This document shows positions 21,593-39,519 of a stretch of DNA of 45,554 bases, in pieces. This DNA comes from a virus. Under the pieces are notes generated by a model. It ran no database searches and was not told the DNA's origin. It was given only the letters and a program-made list of their open reading frames with translations. Where the stretch lies: IMG/VR virus record IMGVR_UViG_3300035180_000831, positions 1 to 45,554 of that record; one strand, written 5' to 3'. Every line of letters starts with the position of its first letter. The first letter of the stretch is position 1. A program made the position numbers and the translations under genes.

Positions 21593-21621
21593 TTGACAAA
21601 TTAGAATAATGAGCGTATACT
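21593..21621 (+). promoter_or_regulatory. Early plus-strand promoter
   Basis: TTGACA (21593-21598), a 17-base spacer beginning AATTAGAA, then TATACT (21616-21621). The start site should be near 21628, about 50 bases upstream of the first early gene. It belongs to the TTGACAAATTAGA promoter family. Confidence 0.8.
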
Positions 21622-22810: not shown

Positions 22811-22983
22811 AAAACATAGTATTCTTTAACATCATAAAAGAAAATGATAAGTGGCGATTATCTGGAAGAGTAGAGAGCGAGAGTATTAGCGAAGTACACG
22901 ATACCAAAGACGGCGCTAGAGATCGAGCCATAGAGATATTACAAGCCTATAAATACACGAAAGGAAAAGATGAGCAGAACTAA
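22807..22983 (+). CDS. Early hypothetical protein (58 aa)
   Basis: The ATG at 22807 overlaps the previous stop, and the TAA at 22981-22983 lies within the following gene. The product begins MKNIVFFNIIKENDKWRLSG and ends with a charged helix (DRAIEILQAYKY). Small genes with this beta-then-helix layout are common in early phage operons. No family is recognised. Confidence 0.55.
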   Translation: MKNIVFFNIIKENDKWRLSGRVESESISEVHDTKDGARDRAIEILQAYKYTKGKDEQN

Positions 22984-24199
22984 AGGAGCAAAGAACAAAC
23001 CCAAATTATTAAATACAGAGGAAACAAACATGTCCGAAGTACAAGAAATACAAGAAGTAGCTAGTGCAACCATTACAGAAGGAAAGGTTAAAATAGCAGA
23101 TTATGAATTGAGTATACAGACTAGAGAGCTTGATTATGTACCAAATGGGCAGAAGATAACAGGATATAACAACGAACTAAACAAATTAGCCTATGCAGTA
23201 GATAAGAATAAAGCAGTTTTGATGGTCGGTGAAACTGGAGTCGGTAAAACAGCTCTAGTCAGGTATATAGCACAAGAGACAAAGAACGGATTTAGACGCT
23301 TGAACTTGAACGGACAGACTACAGTTGACGAATTTGTCGGAAAGATTATGTTAAATGATAAAGGAACATTTTGGCAAGATGGTGTATTGCTTGATGCTAT
23401 GAGAAATGGCTACTGGCTATTACTTGATGAAATCAATGCAAGTCTACCAGAGATTTTGTTCGTATTACATTCATTATTAGATGATGATGGTATGGTAGTA
23501 CTAGCAGAGAAAGATGGCGAAGTAGTTAGACCCCATAAAGATTTTAGATTGTTTGCTACTATGAATCCAAGCGGTAGATATGTCGGAACTAAAGAGCTAA
23601 ACAAAGCGTTTCTGTCTCGTTTCCCGATTATCCTACAAATGGACTTCCCAGAAGAAAAGCAAGAACAGGATATTATCAAATTATACTCTAAGATAGACTC
23701 TAAAGTAGTGTATAACCTAGTTAGAATGGCTAACGATTTAAGATCTGCATATAAAAAAGGTGAGACTAATTTTATGTGTAGTACTAGAGACTTGATTAAC
23801 TTCGCTATGATAGCTCAAGACCTAGGTATATCCGAAGCCTTGCAAATGACTATCATAAATAGAACCGATGAAGAAGATTTGAAAGCCGTTTCCACTATCA
23901 CCAGTTTATATTTTGGCAAGACTGGTACAGCTACCAAGATAATTAACTATGAAGAAGAATATAACCGTATATCTTTAAAAGCCAGAACTAATGTAGATAG
24001 CTTTATGAGCATACTAGGTAGTGTTAGTTCTAGCCAGAAATATACTAATATGTTTATGGTCAATCTAAAGCCGATTGTTAACTCTGGATTTATAGGCGAG
24101 AATATCAAGACACAATTTGATGGAGCATATAAAGCTATAGAGGAAACAGAGAAAATGTGCAATACATTTACTAGCGAAATATCCAAGTGGAGGGAATAA
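22970..24199 (+). CDS. MoxR/CbbQ-type AAA+ ATPase
   Basis: A 409-residue AAA+ ATPase. Walker A is GETGVGKT (87-94) and Walker B is LLLDEIN (150-156). The sensor-1-like ATMNPSG near 195 is followed by NKAFLSRFP carrying the arginine finger region. The N-terminus (SRTKGAKNKPKLL) looks like a DNA-binding or linker extension; an internal ATG at 23030 with GAGG is a possible alternative start. MoxR-type ATPases act with VWA proteins to remodel or metallate partners. Here the partner is the next gene. The target is unknown. Confidence 0.85.
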   Translation: MSRTKGAKNKPKLLNTEETNMSEVQEIQEVASATITEGKVKIADYELSIQTRELDYVPNGQKITGYNNELNKLAYAVDKNKAVLMVGETGVGKTALVRYIAQETKNGFRRLNLNGQTTVDEFVGKIMLNDKGTFWQDGVLLDAMRNGYWLLLDEINASLPEILFVLHSLLDDDGMVVLAEKDGEVVRPHKDFRLFATMNPSGRYVGTKELNKAFLSRFPIILQMDFPEEKQEQDIIKLYSKIDSKVVYNLVRMANDLRSAYKKGETNFMCSTRDLINFAMIAQDLGISEALQMTIINRTDEEDLKAVSTITSLYFGKTGTATKIINYEEEYNRISLKARTNVDSFMSILGSVSSSQKYTNMFMVNLKPIVNSGFIGENIKTQFDGAYKAIEETEKMCNTFTSEISKWRE

Positions 24200-25861
24200 A
24201 TGAAATATACACAATCTGAACTAGGTGTAACAATTGCCGAAGCTCAAAGTATAGCTAGTGTGCTATCTGGACAGCTAAAGGTCAATATAAAAGAGGGTGA
24301 AGATTGGCGATTTGACTATGATAGTAAAAAAGTAAGCTATCGTAGGGAAGATTTAGCTACACTCACTCAAGAAGATGTGATAGCAAATCTACTACATGAA
24401 ACTGGACACGCTAAGTATAGCGAGAATCCTGTTATGTTTAATTATGGAACTATACCAAGCTATCATATACTAGGCACAAAGATGGTTATTGATATGATAG
24501 AAGATTTTAGAATGGAGGATAAGCTAAGGAGCGAGTATCCCTATGCTAAAGACTATTTACCAGAATACTCATTTAAGACCAAATGGTATTTTGAACAATT
24601 AACCAAGAAATACGAAGCCGAAGCTAAAGAAAAAGGACAGCAACCAAATGTGCCGAAAATTATACAGTATTTAAATCTAGCGTATTCTTATATCTCAAAT
24701 GAAGCAGTATTGATGATGGGTGAAACTAATCTCGAAGTTACGGAAGCTATAAAAGCTACCAAGGAAAAGCTAGATGATATACGCAAGACAGCAGCAAACA
24801 ATCTATATATTGTCAAAAGAATCAGAGAAGAAATCTATCCCGATATAAAGAAGCTATTTGAAGATAGTAAGGACGAAGACAATAAAGACCAGAAGGGAGA
24901 TCCAAAACCAGGAGATGACAAGAAAGATGACAAGAAAGATGACAAGAAAGATGACAAGAAAGATGACAGTGATAAACCAAAAGAAAAAGATAAAAAACCC
25001 AAGCCAAAAGATGGCTTTAGTAACAATGAAACACAGAAGATAGTTAAAGAGTTTAAGCAAGTCATGAGTAAAGCTGAAGAGGAAAAACATCGTGCTTATG
25101 ATGATTTATATCCCGAAATAAAGGGAATGATAAATAAGACAGCCGATAAAATGCGCAAAGTATTGACTGATAAGGCTTTTGATAAGTTTGAAGGCAAGTT
25201 TACATCTGGAAAGAAGTTGAATCCTCGGAGAATGTATAAGCCAAGACTAGGCGATTATAGAGTTTTCCAACGAGTTGTTGAAGCCACAAAGAATGATTAT
25301 GAGTTTGCACTGGTAGTAGACCTATCTGGAAGTATGCGTAGTCCTGGAAAGAAAATAAAAGAAGCTATAAAAGCCAGTATGCTATTTGCTCATGTATTAG
25401 ATAAACTAGAAATACCATATATCATATATGGATTTAATGAATATATGTTTGAATATAAAACATCAGAGCAGAAATATGATGTAAAACTAGGCAAGAAAAT
25501 AGCTGATGGTATGTGGAACGAAGTTTATCACCTATCACCAAGCAAATATGGAGCAGCATACAACGATGATGCCGAAGCAATATATCGAGTTAGTAAAATG
25601 CTACAGTCAAGCAGTCATAAGAAAAAAATAATGATGGTATTCTCAGATGGAGAGCCTGCCCCAAGTTATACGCACAATTATTTGCATGAAGATGTAGAAC
25701 ATGAGGTCAAGAAAGCCACTAAAGCAGGAATAAAAGTAATTGGTATAGGTTTAGAGTATGGAGAACTCGAAGAGTACTATCAAAACTGCGTAATTGTGAA
25801 CGATACATCAGAGTTACCAGATAAAACAATCAAAGTTATGAAAGAAATGTTAAAGAAATAG
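24200..25861 (+). CDS. Metallopeptidase-like/VWA protein (CobT-like partner of the AAA+ ATPase)
   Basis: A 553-residue protein with an N-terminal zinc-protease-like HETGH (66-70) and downstream IEDFRMED (about 106-113). A very charged linker contains a 12-bp DNA repeat coding DDKK units (residues about 238-256). A C-terminal VWA domain has an intact MIDAS motif DLSGSM (about 373-378) and late conserved FSDGEPAP. The gene starts immediately after the ATPase stop, the usual arrangement of a MoxR-VWA pair (NorQ-NorD, CbbQ-CbbO, CobS-CobT types). Its role in this phage is unknown; remodelling of a host machine is possible. Confidence 0.8.
   Translation: MKYTQSELGVTIAEAQSIASVLSGQLKVNIKEGEDWRFDYDSKKVSYRREDLATLTQEDVIANLLHETGHAKYSENPVMFNYGTIPSYHILGTKMVIDMIEDFRMEDKLRSEYPYAKDYLPEYSFKTKWYFEQLTKKYEAEAKEKGQQPNVPKIIQYLNLAYSYISNEAVLMMGETNLEVTEAIKATKEKLDDIRKTAANNLYIVKRIREEIYPDIKKLFEDSKDEDNKDQKGDPKPGDDKKDDKKDDKKDDKKDDSDKPKEKDKKPKPKDGFSNNETQKIVKEFKQVMSKAEEEKHRAYDDLYPEIKGMINKTADKMRKVLTDKAFDKFEGKFTSGKKLNPRRMYKPRLGDYRVFQRVVEATKNDYEFALVVDLSGSMRSPGKKIKEAIKASMLFAHVLDKLEIPYIIYGFNEYMFEYKTSEQKYDVKLGKKIADGMWNEVYHLSPSKYGAAYNDDAEAIYRVSKMLQSSSHKKKIMMVFSDGEPAPSYTHNYLHEDVEHEVKKATKAGIKVIGIGLEYGELEEYYQNCVIVNDTSELPDKTIKVMKEMLKK
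24914..24968 (+). repeat. Four 12-bp coding repeats (GATGACAAGAAA)
   Basis: The tandem GATGACAAGAAA units are in the linker of the VWA protein and give charged DDKK repeats. They probably expand and contract by slippage, so linker length may vary between relatives. Confidence 0.8.
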
Positions 25862-29450: not shown

Positions 29451-29470
29451 CAATTTAATAGGATATTTAT

Positions 29471-29590
29471 GGGGGAGGTCATCTTCTAGGCTACATTCAG
29501 GTGTACATCTGGATAAGGATAGGATACCACCGTCAGCGGAATAATTACCCGTCGGGTGGAGAGTTAGGTTCGAATCCTATACCCTTCCCC
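29471..29590 (+). ncRNA. tRNA-like structured element, non-canonical
   Basis: A T-arm-like GGTTCGAATCC lies at 29567-29577 and the 3' end reads CTTCCCCA. The 5' GGGGGAG (29471-29477) pairs fully with CTTCCCC (29584-29590). An ACCC-GTC-GGGT hairpin at 29547-29557 could be a long variable arm. The D-arm and anticodon arm do not form clearly, and the total length of 120 bases is too long for a normal tRNA. It may be a decayed tRNA, a tRNA mimic or a different RNA with an acceptor-like stem. Its identity is uncertain. Confidence 0.4.
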
Positions 29591-29599
29591 ATAAGTACC

Positions 29600-29621
29600 T
29601 TATTAACACACAGGCACTAAG
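29600..29621 (+). repeat. Duplicated 22-bp leader motif, copy 1
   Basis: TTATTAACACACAGGCACTA plus AG recurs at 29900-29921 with one base changed, exactly 300 bases later. Each copy lies upstream of a gene start. In this copy, CACTAA and TTAGTG just downstream form a 6-bp hairpin before ATG 29649. Confidence 0.75.
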
Positions 29622-29648: not shown

Positions 29649-29906
29649 ATGAGTATACACATTGATGTCTACAATAAGATGAGAGAAAGAGCCAAGACTA
29701 AGAAAGATGGAGTATACCCATTTGCTGGATATAACTTTTATTTAGTCATTGATAACCAACTAGCAGGCTACTCTGACTTATTTGGTAATATCTATGAACT
29801 TGCATCTGGATTTAGTGTGTCAAAAGGCAAAGCTAAAGATAGATGGGAAGCTAGAGATATTTTGAAAGGATACCTAAAACAGTTTAAGGAAAATAAAAGT
29901 TATTAA
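29649..29906 (+). CDS. Early hypothetical protein (85 aa)
   Basis: It lies after the tRNA-like element and starts with an ATG 27 bases after the leader repeat. The product contains YPFAGYNFYLVIDNQLAGYS and ends in a basic helix (KGYLKQFKENKSY). Its 3' end overlaps the second copy of the leader repeat. No family is recognised. Confidence 0.6.
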   Translation: MSIHIDVYNKMRERAKTKKDGVYPFAGYNFYLVIDNQLAGYSDLFGNIYELASGFSVSKGKAKDRWEARDILKGYLKQFKENKSY

Positions 29907-29921
29907 CACATAGGCACTAAG
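29900..29921 (+). repeat. Duplicated 22-bp leader motif, copy 2
   Basis: Same as 29600-29621 except for one C-to-T change. It lies at the end of the preceding gene and about 15 bases upstream of ATG 29936, without the hairpin partner of the first copy. Confidence 0.75.
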
Positions 29922-30620: not shown

Positions 30621-31289
30621 ATGCTTGGAACTAAAAGGTTTATTCTCAAGACGATTGTAGGATCACAAGCTCATGGATTAGCTACTCCTGAGAGTGATTT
30701 TGATTATCGTGGCGTATTTATATATCCTACCTCTGAAATTATAAGTATCAGACCACCTAGCGACCAAACATCTTGGATTGAGGGAAAGAAAGACGATACA
30801 TCTTGGGAGTTAGGTAAGTTTCTTATGATGGCTATCAAGTGTAACCCCACAATACTTGAGGTGTTTAAGTCACCAGTTAATTATGATTTTAAATACGGAC
30901 AAGAACTCAGAGATTTATTCCCTTATGTTTGGAACTCTACCGATGTCTGTAATGCTTACATAGGATATGGGCTGAACCAAAGAAAGAAGTTTCTTGAAGA
31001 CAAAGATAAACGACAGCCTAAATATGCCGTAGCTTATTTAAGGTCGCTTTATAATGCTTGGGAGATACTAACTACAGGTGACTTCTCAGTAGATATGAGC
31101 AAGACAGAGATATTTAAAACATTAAAGAAATGGAAATCTGGTGATTTTACTCTTGGAGGGGTTATCAACCTTACTAATGCCTGGCAAGCTAAAGTAGAGG
31201 GAGCATATAAAGACAATCCCAATAAGAAAACCGAAATTGAACCCATAAATGACTTCTTACTAAAAGTACGAAAAGAAAACTGGATATGA
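30621..31289 (+). CDS. Polymerase beta-type nucleotidyltransferase
   Basis: A 222-residue protein. GSQAHGL (14-20) followed by SDFDYRG (25-31) is the GS-x(n)-D-x-D metal and nucleotide-binding signature of the Pol-beta superfamily; it matches the predicted nucleotidyltransferases often found in phages (COG3541-like). A helical C-terminal region follows. It could modify RNA ends, tRNA or a protein; the target is not visible. A short ORF at 30587-30634 overlaps its start and is not considered a gene. Confidence 0.75.
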   Translation: MLGTKRFILKTIVGSQAHGLATPESDFDYRGVFIYPTSEIISIRPPSDQTSWIEGKKDDTSWELGKFLMMAIKCNPTILEVFKSPVNYDFKYGQELRDLFPYVWNSTDVCNAYIGYGLNQRKKFLEDKDKRQPKYAVAYLRSLYNAWEILTTGDFSVDMSKTEIFKTLKKWKSGDFTLGGVINLTNAWQAKVEGAYKDNPNKKTEIEPINDFLLKVRKENWI

Positions 31290-34948: not shown

Positions 34949-34977
34949 ACTATACTATAGTCTGTCTAATTTGTCAA
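34949..34977 (-). promoter_or_regulatory. Sigma70-like promoter ahead of the small HTH gene
   Basis: TTGACA (34977-34972), a 17-base spacer beginning AATTAGAC, then TATAGT (34954-34949) on the minus strand. The predicted start is near 34942, with GGAG before ATG 34919. It shares the TTGACAAATTAGA form with three other promoters. Confidence 0.8.
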
Positions 34978-35633: not shown

Positions 35634-36353
35634 TTAAAATGGCAAATCTTCTACATTAACTGTATATTCTGGTTTATTGAGTGTCTCTCTGATTTTAGCT
35701 TTAGAGGCTTCTATAGATTCACTAGCTCCTGGTACAGTATTGGATTCTTCTACTGCTACAGCAGAGTTTTCGTCTTTTGAACCATAGATATATGATTCAA
35801 GCGATTTCTCTTTGAACTTCTCTCTGGCTTCTAATTCAAGTGCGGTTAGTGGAATACTATCAGAGGAGTCTACGGTATCTACTGAGTAATATCCTGCTCC
35901 TGGGCGTTCTGTACGAGTAACTATAAAGTCACGCTCTAATACTTTAGTACCGTTTTTAGCTTTTACCTCAATCTCATCACGAACTGATTTACGAGTCTTG
36001 AAAATCTGGAACTCTTGAGTATCACGATTGATAATCGGATAGTAGAAAGTTACAGTAGCCTTGTATGGATCTGCTAATTTATGAGCTTCATCCATAGCCT
36101 TTTTATCTTCTTTGTTTTTAACACCATTGAGAATATCAAAATACTGTTCACAATAACCACATGGGCTTCCTTCGTTTACACGAGTACAGGCGATTCTATC
36201 CCATTCTTTATCACCTTTTTTGATAAAGTGCATACCATCGTAGTAAGGTGCTGCTAAAATGCGGAACTTGATAGTTTCGTCTTTTTTCTTGAGTGAAACA
36301 AATAAATTACTTGACCCTATCTTTACCTCTTGACCAAAATCTGCTGTTGGCAT
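35634..36353 (-). CDS. Single-stranded DNA-binding protein-like
   Basis: A 239-residue protein. It has a beta-rich N-terminal part and a possible zinc site (C56, C65, C68 in ACTRVNEGSPCGYC). A long acidic tail ends in EDLPF, the SSB-type C-terminal peptide. T4 gp32-like proteins also carry a zinc site and an acidic tail, so a replication or recombination SSB role is likely. It is the first gene after the minus promoter at 36402-36430, with GGAGG before ATG 36353. Confidence 0.65.
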   Translation of the reverse strand: MPTADFGQEVKIGSSNLFVSLKKKDETIKFRILAAPYYDGMHFIKKGDKEWDRIACTRVNEGSPCGYCEQYFDILNGVKNKEDKKAMDEAHKLADPYKATVTFYYPIINRDTQEFQIFKTRKSVRDEIEVKAKNGTKVLERDFIVTRTERPGAGYYSVDTVDSSDSIPLTALELEAREKFKEKSLESYIYGSKDENSAVAVEESNTVPGASESIEASKAKIRETLNKPEYTVNVEDLPF

Positions 36354-36386: not shown

Positions 36387-36402
36387 TTAATGATTACATA
36401 AA
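36387..36402 (-). promoter_or_regulatory. Palindromic operator-like motif, copy 5, at the SSB promoter start
   Basis: On the minus strand TTATGTAATCATTAAA. The predicted +1 (near 36395) lies inside this motif, immediately downstream of the -10 box, a typical repressor position. Confidence 0.55.
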
Positions 36403-36430
36403 TCCTAACAGAGTTTGTCTAATTTGTCAA
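36402..36430 (-). promoter_or_regulatory. Minus-strand promoter for the SSB operon
   Basis: TTGACA (36430-36425), a 17-base spacer beginning AATTAGAC and TAGGAT (36407-36402). Transcription should start near 36395, about 42 bases ahead of ATG 36353. It overlaps the palindromic motif, which suggests repression. Confidence 0.8.
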
Positions 36431-36467
36431 GCAGCATACCCAATTGAACATCAGAACAACTTACCTA

Positions 36468-36498
36468 TTGACAGCTATACTGATAGTGGGTGTATAAA
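36468..36498 (+). promoter_or_regulatory. Plus-strand promoter for the zinc-finger operon
   Basis: TTGACA (36468-36473), 17 bases, then TGTATA (36491-36496), which overlaps TATAAA (36493-36498). The start would be near 36503, giving a leader of about 145 bases that contains the structured element at 36548-36645. It is divergent from the SSB promoter, about 38 bases away. Confidence 0.65.
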
Positions 36499-36547
36499 TA
36501 CATAAGCATCACCATTTTAAGGTGCATTCCTACGGCAAGAGGGGTAA

Positions 36548-36645
36548 TAGTATAATTAGCGAAACACCTGTTTTCGCATGGTAAGGTAAAAAAAACTTGC
36601 CAAAGTCTAATTATACTAGCCTTGCCAGCCGAAAGCAGGTGTTTT
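36548..36645 (+). promoter_or_regulatory. Structured leader able to sequester the Shine-Dalgarno site
   Basis: TAGTATAATTAG (36548-36559) pairs perfectly with CTAATTATACTA (36607-36618). Inside lie hairpin A (CGAAA, loop CACCTGT, TTTCG at 36560-36576) and hairpin B (TGGTAAG with CTTGCCA at 36596-36602). The loop and stem AAACACCTG (36562-36570) can pair nine bases with CAGGTGTTT (36636-36644), which holds the AGGTG site of ATG 36648. CTTGCCA is repeated at 36621-36627, giving a competing partner for hairpin B. This is a switch-like design; no known riboswitch consensus is recognised. Confidence 0.6.
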
Positions 36646-36647
36646 GT

Positions 36648-36908
36648 ATGCAATACAACAAGTGTTATCAATGTCAAATTAAAGACCAAGTACTCGGTAC
36701 TTCTTTTTGTAGTGTCGAGTGTAAATCAAAATACTTAGAGTCTCACAAACAAGTAAAGTACAGAGATAGTTTTGCCGAAAAATTAGCCAAGTTTAAAGAG
36801 ACACACTTGGCACATAATACAGAACATAATACATCAGATGAAGAAGTAGTTGAATATATGGATAAGTTATTTAAATCAGTACCACAATTAGAAAATACAG
36901 AGAAATAA
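36648..36908 (+). CDS. Zinc-finger protein (86 aa)
   Basis: The start ATG 36648 (MQYNKCYQCQIKDQ) has AGGTG at six bases; an upstream in-frame reading lies within the leader and is not credible. CYQC, then FCSVEC (about residues 6-28) is a zinc-binding treble-clef-like arrangement. The C-terminal half is charged and helical. Its expression is probably governed by the structured leader. Confidence 0.7.
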   Translation: MQYNKCYQCQIKDQVLGTSFCSVECKSKYLESHKQVKYRDSFAEKLAKFKETHLAHNTEHNTSDEEVVEYMDKLFKSVPQLENTEK

Positions 36909-36910
36909 TT

Positions 36911-37063
36911 ATGGGAAAACAACAAAAACTTTTAACGGAAAAATCAATATCTAGACAACAACCATTATTAAGTAGCGACAGGGAGTCAAATCTGGTTATG
37001 TCGCCTCACAGAGAAGAACCAGACCGTCACGATGGACTGAAGGGAAAGTTGCTGTCCGTTTGA
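36911..37063 (+). CDS. Possible small protein overlapping a structured RNA (50 aa)
   Basis: An ORF starting MGKQQKLLTEKSISRQQPLL and ending in GLKGKLLSV, with no clear ribosome site. It overlaps the pseudoknot region, so it may be an accidental ORF in an RNA, or the RNA may be its mRNA structure. Given as an alternative to the non-coding reading. Confidence 0.3.
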   Translation: MGKQQKLLTEKSISRQQPLLSSDRESNLVMSPHREEPDRHDGLKGKLLSV

Positions 37064-37245
37064 TGGGTATGTCCGACTAGAGAGAGAACAGAGTCGGAGG
37101 AAGAAAGAACATAGGATAACAAATAAGACTATGTTCACCTGTTTACTACGCCACTAGACCGACAATCGGAAATATCTAGTTAAGTAATCTTTTATGGGGG
37201 TAGGGGGGGAGCCGTCCTCCGGACATCAGCTAAAACTTGCTATCC
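36970..37245 (+). ncRNA. Candidate novel structured RNA with H-type pseudoknot and hairpins
   Basis: An H-type pseudoknot: GCGACA (36975-36980) pairs with TGTCGC (36999-37004) and TCTGGTT (36991-36997) pairs with AACCAGA (37017-37023), with a one-base inner loop. Then come TCCGACT/AGTCGGA (37072-37078/37092-37098), GAACATAG/CTATGTTC (37107-37114/37129-37136), and ACTAGA/TCTAGT (37153-37158/37175-37180) enclosing CCGA/TCGG. A G-rich stem lies at about 37195-37245. The G+C is higher than the surroundings, and no protein domain explains it. It does not match group I introns, tmRNA or RNase P as I know them. Confidence 0.5.
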
Positions 37246-37323
37246 CTTACTATATATTACTAAGTTATATTGTTATATAAATGTTATAGATATATTTTAT
37301 AGATATGTTATTGATATTGCTAT

Positions 37324-37545
37324 ATGAAGTATTTTTGTAAGGTATGTGGTAAAACAACTCAAGATAAACGCTTTAAGAAGTACTGTAGTGAGGTCTGTAG
37401 GATAAGAGGTATGACTAATAAGCTAGTTATGGATAAGATACAAGAGGATTGGAAAAATGGATTCGACCTAGAAGCCCTAGAAACCTGGAAAAAAGAACAT
37501 CAACCAAGAGTAGACTCTAATGGTGAGACTTGGATTTCTTTGTAG
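37324..37545 (+). CDS. Zinc-ribbon protein (73 aa)
   Basis: The N-terminus MKYFCKVCGKTTQDKRFKKY followed by CSEVC forms a C-x2-C and C-x3-C zinc site. The remainder is helical and polar. It is in the same operon as the zinc-finger gene at 36648 but separated by the structured RNA. Its 3' end overlaps the convergent MazG gene by 46 bases. A DNA- or RNA-binding role is likely. Confidence 0.65.
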   Translation: MKYFCKVCGKTTQDKRFKKYCSEVCRIRGMTNKLVMDKIQEDWKNGFDLEALETWKKEHQPRVDSNGETWISL

Positions 37546-37898
37546 AACTTATCTTTCCACAAAGTATCATGTACCCAAGCTCTTGATTTATCCCTATCCT
37601 CTTTATAATCACCATCTTGAAAATCGCCTGCCGTATATCTACTCATGTTGTAAGCGACCTTTTCTCTTACCTCGGAATCTACATCAACACCTAATATATT
37701 CGCCAAAGTATAAGCAAAGATAAACACATCCGCTACCTCTTGAGCCATATCTTTATTATCACCATTCATATGAGCGTCTTTTAGTTCATCTACTTCACCT
37801 AGCAATAGGTCTAAAGTAACTTGAAATGTATTATTAGTCATCATCACAGGTCTATCTTTGAGAAAATCGGCAACCAACTGCTGTACACCTTCTTTCAT
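37500..37898 (-). CDS. MazG-like nucleotide pyrophosphohydrolase
   Basis: A 132-residue enzyme of the all-alpha NTP-PPase superfamily. The metal-binding EVDEL (35-39) and EVADV (54-58) form the E-x2-E and E-x2-D pairs. It may hydrolyse non-canonical or host nucleotides, or lower (p)ppGpp indirectly, as proposed for phage MazG. It is the last gene of the late block and overlaps the convergent zinc-ribbon gene. The start ATG at 37898 follows AGGAA. Confidence 0.75.
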   Translation of the reverse strand: MKEGVQQLVADFLKDRPVMMTNNTFQVTLDLLLGEVDELKDAHMNGDNKDMAQEVADVFIFAYTLANILGVDVDSEVREKVAYNMSRYTAGDFQDGDYKEDRDKSRAWVHDTLWKDKFYKEIQVSPLESTLG

Positions 37899-38760: not shown

Positions 38761-39519
38761 CTAAATAGTATTTTTAATAGTTTTATCAAGTTCATCCGCC
38801 AATCTAGTCTTATAGGACTCTATTTTTTCATTGCACTCGGCATCTTTGAGTGCTAATGCATCAGAATTTTGTTTTTGTGCATCAGATAGTGCTTTTTTAG
38901 TGTCTTCAAGTTCCTTTTTTACATCATCACAAGTTTCTGGAGTAGGTGGAGTAGGTGGAATAGGCTCTGGGGTAGACTCATAGTTTACACCATAAGCAAA
39001 ACAAATGCCTTTAGCGATAGCTTTAGATACCATGTCAGTATCAGCAAGAATGACTTTATCGTGAGCATCTTGGACTACACCCATCTCTAATAGTACACAG
39101 TGAGTATTGGCGGTAAGTCTACGCCACATATAGTACTGAGTTATATTTTTATTTAATCTTTCTGGGTGATTAACAATCCCAGACTCTTTAAAGTAAACAC
39201 TTTCGATAGCTTCTTTAAGTCTCTTAGATTCTTTGTTGCTTTCCTCAGATAAGTCTATGGCAGGGTCTATGTAACCAATTACACCACCACCAGTTCCATA
39301 TACATCAGCATCTCCATGAAGTGCTAGGAATAAGTCGAAGTCTTTTTTAATCTCAGCGTCAGTAGGGTCGGCTCCGACAATTTGGACAACAAAACCTTTA
39401 GAAATAAGAATATCTGAGAGTCTGTTAGTAATACGCCAGTTTAGTTCCTGCTCACCAGGCGCACCAGTAGCACCAGTAGTACGAGGATAATGACCGGCTT
39501 GTAAACAAATAAATGTCAT
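38761..39519 (-). CDS. N-acetylmuramoyl-L-alanine amidase endolysin
   Basis: A 252-residue endolysin. The Amidase_3 zinc and catalytic residues are H10 (QAGHYP), E25 (GEQELN), H68 (LALHGDAD) and E145 (VLLEMGV). A Pro/Thr linker (about residues 185-195) leads to a charged coiled-coil tail, DVKKELEDTKKALSDAQKQN, which may bind the wall or give multimers. It cuts the amide bond between muramic acid and the peptide stem. It is followed by three small membrane genes that should control its release. Confidence 0.85.
   Translation of the reverse strand: MTFICLQAGHYPRTTGATGAPGEQELNWRITNRLSDILISKGFVVQIVGADPTDAEIKKDFDLFLALHGDADVYGTGGGVIGYIDPAIDLSEESNKESKRLKEAIESVYFKESGIVNHPERLNKNITQYYMWRRLTANTHCVLLEMGVVQDAHDKVILADTDMVSKAIAKGICFAYGVNYESTPEPIPPTPPTPETCDDVKKELEDTKKALSDAQKQNSDALALKDAECNEKIESYKTRLADELDKTIKNTI

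Follow-up and report, generated by a model that had tools for sequence, protein, structure and literature searches.

A plus-strand stretch of a tailed-phage genome (36972-37150), set between two small zinc-ribbon ORFs, could fold as a compact five-way junction rather than as the H-type pseudoknot first proposed there, and we tentatively read it, at somewhat less than even confidence, as part of a rightward phage transcript: an orphan structured segment that is not translated and acts in cis between ORF1 and ORF2. The window referred to throughout is the whole virus record (45,554 bases), and its features are collected in Table 1. That the plus strand holds a structured, non-coding segment is supported by the strand-specific folding z-scores, the sharp limits of the predicted domain, the absence of a coding signal and the lack of any conserved protein reading.

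Table 1. Predicted and annotated features in and around the structured region
Feature	Position	Strand	Remarks
Whole IMG/VR virus record IMGVR_UViG_3300035180_000831	45,554 bases		tailed phage
SSB-like gene	35634-36353	-	
TTGACA-17-TAGGAT, promoter-like element for the leftward SSB operon	36402-36430	-	contains TTGACAAATTAGACA
Leader	36548-36646	+	very stable hairpin (36560-36646) and interleaved inverted repeat; local-fold scan
ORF1, 86 aa	36648-36908	+	CxxC...CxxxC, zinc-ribbon/MYND-like; best Pfam match at E 0.004, under the cut-off
50-codon ORF overlapping the domain	36911-37063	+	no SD, no relatives
Five-way-junction RNA domain (P1 and four hairpins)	36972-37150	+	MFE -57.1 kcal/mol
Closing helix P1, 5' arm (GUAG, GACAGG)	36972-36982	+	predicted fold
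Pseudoknot stem 1, GCGACA/UGUCGC	36975-37004	+	arms 36975-36980/36999-37004; mutually exclusive with P1
Hairpin S2, UCUGGUU/AACCAGA	36991-37023	+	arms 36991-36997/37017-37023; stem 2 of the proposed pseudoknot; pair probability 0.82-1.0
Hairpin P3	37024-37066	+	37024-37029/37061-37066 and 37031-37037/37054-37060; fold; absent from the first-pass annotation
7-bp hairpin UCCGACU/AGUCGGA	37072-37098	+	pair probability 0.95-1.0
8-bp hairpin GAACAUAG/CUAUGUUC	37107-37136	+	pair probability 0.99-1.0
Closing helix P1, 3' arm (CCUGUU, CUAC)	37138-37149	+	predicted fold
Hairpin ACUAGA(CCGA/UCGG)UCUAGU	37153-37180	+	outer arms 37153-37158/37175-37180; 5-nt bulge; fold
G-rich hairpin GGGGGUAG.../CUAUCCCUU	37196-37247	+	-21.1 kcal/mol; no U tract 3'
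AT-rich spacer	37250-37323	+	three imperfect copies of a 21-nt motif at 37273-37317; repeats
ORF2, 73 aa	37324-37545	+	CxxC...CxxxC zinc ribbon; no SD; PHROG 1271
MazG-like gene	37500-37898	-	
Endolysin gene	38761-39519	-	

The terminase, portal and major head protein genes of the record lie on the minus strand, and the region belongs to a small plus-strand island (36.4-37.5 kb) bordered by minus-strand genes, with the leftward SSB operon on one flank and, on the other, the leftward late operon at its terminal side. Within this island, the interval 36926-37323 between the two same-strand ORFs is the longest ORF-free gap of the record, with a folding z-score of -2.84 on the plus strand versus -1.08 on the minus strand. 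The region is purine-rich on the plus strand, as are the surrounding ORFs, and its GC content of 0.42-0.445 against about 0.30-0.35 around it bears out the enrichment reported in the first-pass annotation. Elsewhere on the plus strand, a CobS-like AAA ATPase is followed by a CobT/VWA-like protein (22970-25861), a pair often annotated in phages as porphyrin or cobalamin biosynthesis, and a nucleotidyltransferase of the RlaP type (RNA repair pathway; Pfam E 1e-24) is encoded at 30621-31289.

The label of zinc-finger genes previously given to both neighbors is fair, although all their Pfam matches fall under the curated cut-off; ORF2 resembles the HNH endonucleases of PHROG 1271 (E 4e-4) over its zinc-ribbon part only and lacks the SD present for most genes of the record. 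The 50-codon ORF does overlap the first part of the region, as had been pointed out, and its third-position GC is 0.10 ahead of the domain but 0.52 once the domain is entered; it is probably not a gene. Neither the two zinc-ribbon proteins nor the 50-codon ORF has relatives in the collections searched, and a conserved protein reading, which had been named as one of two observations that would speak against an RNA, was found neither in the protein searches nor in a six-frame translation of the region matched against all loci.

The predicted five-way domain has a z-score of -4.09, with none of 200 shuffles as stable, and a genome-wide local-fold scan with z-scores on both strands independently returns the same limits (z -4.28). 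It ranks 31st of 387 local structures in that scan; with thirty structures of this one genome, mostly inside genes, scoring better, folding energy alone is weak evidence. The four hairpins are enclosed by P1, a long-range 10-bp helix (GUAG...ACAGG/CCUGU...CUAC) whose outer pairs (36972-36975 with 37146-37149) have a probability of about 0.75 and whose inner pairs (36977-36982 with 37138-37143) reach 0.96-1.0 for the five central pairs. All stems named in the first-pass annotation are present, including the perfect 7-bp (TCCGACT/AGTCGGA) and 8-bp (GAACATAG/CTATGTTC) hairpins and the nested ACTAGA/TCTAGT stem around CCGA/TCGG, whereas P1 and the hairpin at 37024-37066 had been overlooked. For the G-rich hairpin further downstream, a terminator search gave no call.

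The interleaved repeats GCGACA/TGTCGC and TCTGGTT/AACCAGA are likewise where they had been placed, and with loops of 10, 1 and 12 nt between stems of 6 and 7 bp the H-type geometry is sterically possible; as the main fold the pseudoknot is not supported, since its stem 1 competes with the P1 helix. Positions 36975 and 36977-36980 are common to stem 1 and P1, so that the two helices exclude each other, and stem 1 has a pair probability of 0.0 in the non-pseudoknot ensemble. By a Dirks-Pierce style estimate, the isolated pseudoknot (-11.7 kcal/mol) is close to what these positions reach in an ordinary fold (-12.0 kcal/mol). P1 contributes about 11.8 kcal/mol (-57.1 versus -45.3), and the pseudoknot is about 10 kcal/mol worse than the P1 fold across the whole domain. 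Because it shares bases with a helix favored by roughly 10 kcal/mol, the pseudoknot probably does not represent the resting fold and is at most a transient or alternative state, a ranking that is an energy argument and not proof.

The repeats exceed chance modestly and are not extreme. Among 300 dinucleotide shuffles of the region, one contained such a pseudoknot and two contained three or more perfect hairpins with stems of 7 bp or longer; the 45.5-kb record itself offers two places per strand for such a pseudoknot, against 0-1 in shuffled genomes, and the same hairpin count is also attained by about 2% of 276-nt windows taken from the real genome.

The hairpin in the leader of ORF1 is a stronger structure than the adjacent five-way domain and the top local structure anywhere in the record (z -7.84, first of 387). 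It consists of a 25-nt inverted repeat (84%) terminating just before the ATG at 36648 and carries an SD-like AGGTG in its 3' arm with CACCT opposite, and a perfect 12-bp inverted repeat TAGTATAATTAG/CTAATTATACTA (36548-36559/36607-36618) presents TATAAT on each strand. The leader (36548-36657) is a possible translational switch, or a possible site of face-to-face promoters of ORF1. The promoter-like motif TTGACAAATTAGACA occurs upstream of early genes at 34963-34977 (-), 36416-36430 (-) and 21593-21607 (+), and allowing up to 3 mismatches gives 10 matches versus 3.3 expected; a clear promoter or terminator was looked for within the island and not found.

Other intergenic elements of the record are also structured or repeated. 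An ORF-free element at 29455-29607 (+, z -4.87) has a long closing stem and a cloverleaf-like shape; it carries GGTTCGAATCC, which is exactly a T-arm/B-box sequence, and the end CCCTTCCCCA; neither ARAGORN nor Rfam calls a tRNA there, and it is possibly a tRNA-like structure, a tRNA remnant or an att core. A 22-nt repeat, TTATTAACACA(C/T)AGGCACTAAG, lies in two successive intergenic spacers (29600-29621 and 29900-29921, +), with 0 copies expected by chance.

Searches for known RNA families and for relatives returned no second copy of the domain. Rfam 15 yielded 0 matches at the gathering score over the whole window and, at E up to 10 across 36400-37400, chance matches only, all outside the region; group I and group II introns were rejected, with no covariance-model match to a core even at E up to 10, as were tRNA and tmRNA, of which ARAGORN detects none in the window. 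DNA similarity searches gave short or AT-rich chance matches only, in phages, plasmids, 41 related phage records, the two genomes with the nearest terminases and up to 380 Patescibacteria genomes from the phylum to which the Moraniibacteriota MAG belongs. Two local matches were dismissed as AT-rich: that of 36909-36944 to phage MT837176, which is unannotated, and that of 36925-36950 in another phage (G031), which lies within an unrelated coding region. Across all of IMG/VR, the pseudoknot pattern with variable loops occurs twice, both times within unrelated protein genes, and where the first-pass annotation had suggested an Infernal search with a model built from relatives, a single-sequence covariance model (R1) recovers the window alone. 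The possible new structured RNA of the first-pass annotation is supported as a structured, non-coding plus-strand segment but, with no second member found, not as a family.

Relatives of the phage itself are known, with terminases at 56-76% identity, and two large ones, G035 (68%) and G003 (66%), share the SSB; in their syntenic SSB regions, SSB is preceded by replication genes, and no counterpart of the island is seen. Compared with L104 (G035), the segment 31859-36353 has its SSB operon co-directional with the late operon, whereas the two are convergent in G035; the early block appears inverted relative to G035, and the helicase/primase genes are placed differently. Among assemblies of bacteria and archaea, the two nearest terminases sit on contigs binned as Moraniibacteriota (58%) and Heimdallarchaeota (59%), the latter probably misbinned, as the contig name gives a very low coverage. 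From these bins, a Patescibacteria host is a weak inference.

Our preferred reading of a cis-acting segment draws on the longest ORF-free gap with its plus-strand folding excess, the stability and independently found limits of the domain, the purine-rich plus strand with same-strand ORFs on both sides, the lack of coding signal and protein relatives, and an ORF2 devoid of SD; it is weakened by the absence of any homologue and hence of covariation, by the lack of a clear promoter or terminator in the island and by the rank of 31st. Transcription would start in the intergenic stretch that separates ORF1 from the leftward SSB operon, at about 36.47-36.56 kb, and the transcript would cross the leader hairpin, ORF1, the segment 36972-37250 and ORF2 and meet the leftward late operon end-on. 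As computed, the five-way junction would be closed by the 10-bp helix and followed by two more hairpins, and as an intercistronic element it would separate ORF1 from ORF2, stabilize or process the message and control access to ORF2; a flanking zinc-ribbon protein may bind the candidate RNA.

The reading that we take most seriously beside it, though we consider it rather unlikely, is an ordinary spacer without function, or a decayed sequence, that separates two accessory genes and would owe its hairpins largely to accident, as the rank of the domain, the share of windows equally rich in perfect hairpins and the absence of the stretch from every related phage would suggest; the z-score of the domain, its sharp limits, the strand asymmetry and a GC content clearly above the flanks argue against such an origin, and the three compatible hairpins and the closing helix are jointly rarer than any single one. 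The compact, self-contained domain and its lack of a protein reading would also suit a gene for a trans-acting non-coding RNA, about 180-280 nt long, with its own promoter or cut from the ORF1-ORF2 message, but the plus strand has no promoter-like site just upstream and no intrinsic terminator 3' of the domain, and Rfam holds no relative, all of which renders this unlikely.

A folding switch, in which the pseudoknot of stem 1 and S2 forms first and gives way to P1 as soon as 37138-37149 has been transcribed, altering downstream access, is improbable: the mutual exclusion of stem 1 and P1 and the sterically sound loops are consistent with it, but the pseudoknot about equals the simple fold locally and falls far below P1 across the domain, and neither an evident ligand or expression platform nor relatives were found. 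We regard as very improbable a DNA-level origin, packaging or recombination site made of the hairpins and the AT-rich spacer, since the folding excess is confined to one strand, as expected for RNA, and there are no iterons and no matching element in relatives, even if the imperfect 21-nt repeats adjoin the G-rich hairpin at the meeting point of the early and late operons. The most speculative proposal, to which we give very little credence, is a new class of phage riboregulator that would pass from a transient H-type pseudoknot to the five-way junction, together with the leader hairpin and two zinc-ribbon proteins of the same transcript, possibly in a Patescibacteria virus.

GOLLD and ROOL are found in phage or phage-like sequence. 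They are likewise structured non-coding RNAs without known function (PMC2864571, PMC12286853), but much larger and in covariation-supported Rfam families, whereas the present domain measures about 180-280 nt and is without an Rfam match or a relative in the collections searched. H-type pseudoknots of mRNA leaders have a stem and loop geometry like that of 36975-37023; unlike in those, stem 1 here is outcompeted by a closing helix, with no adjacent start codon or SD. Structured intercistronic elements of phage messages likewise lie between two small same-strand ORFs, the second without SD, but the domain matches none described in sequence or structure.

As a single sequence without relatives, the domain has its value as a candidate to test, and it illustrates that a long-range helix, revealed by the whole-domain fold alone, can displace an eye-catching local pseudoknot. 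To our knowledge, almost nothing is known of phage RNA regulation in candidate-phyla bacteria; if real, the segment would be an orphan structured RNA from a phage whose host may be among these bacteria.
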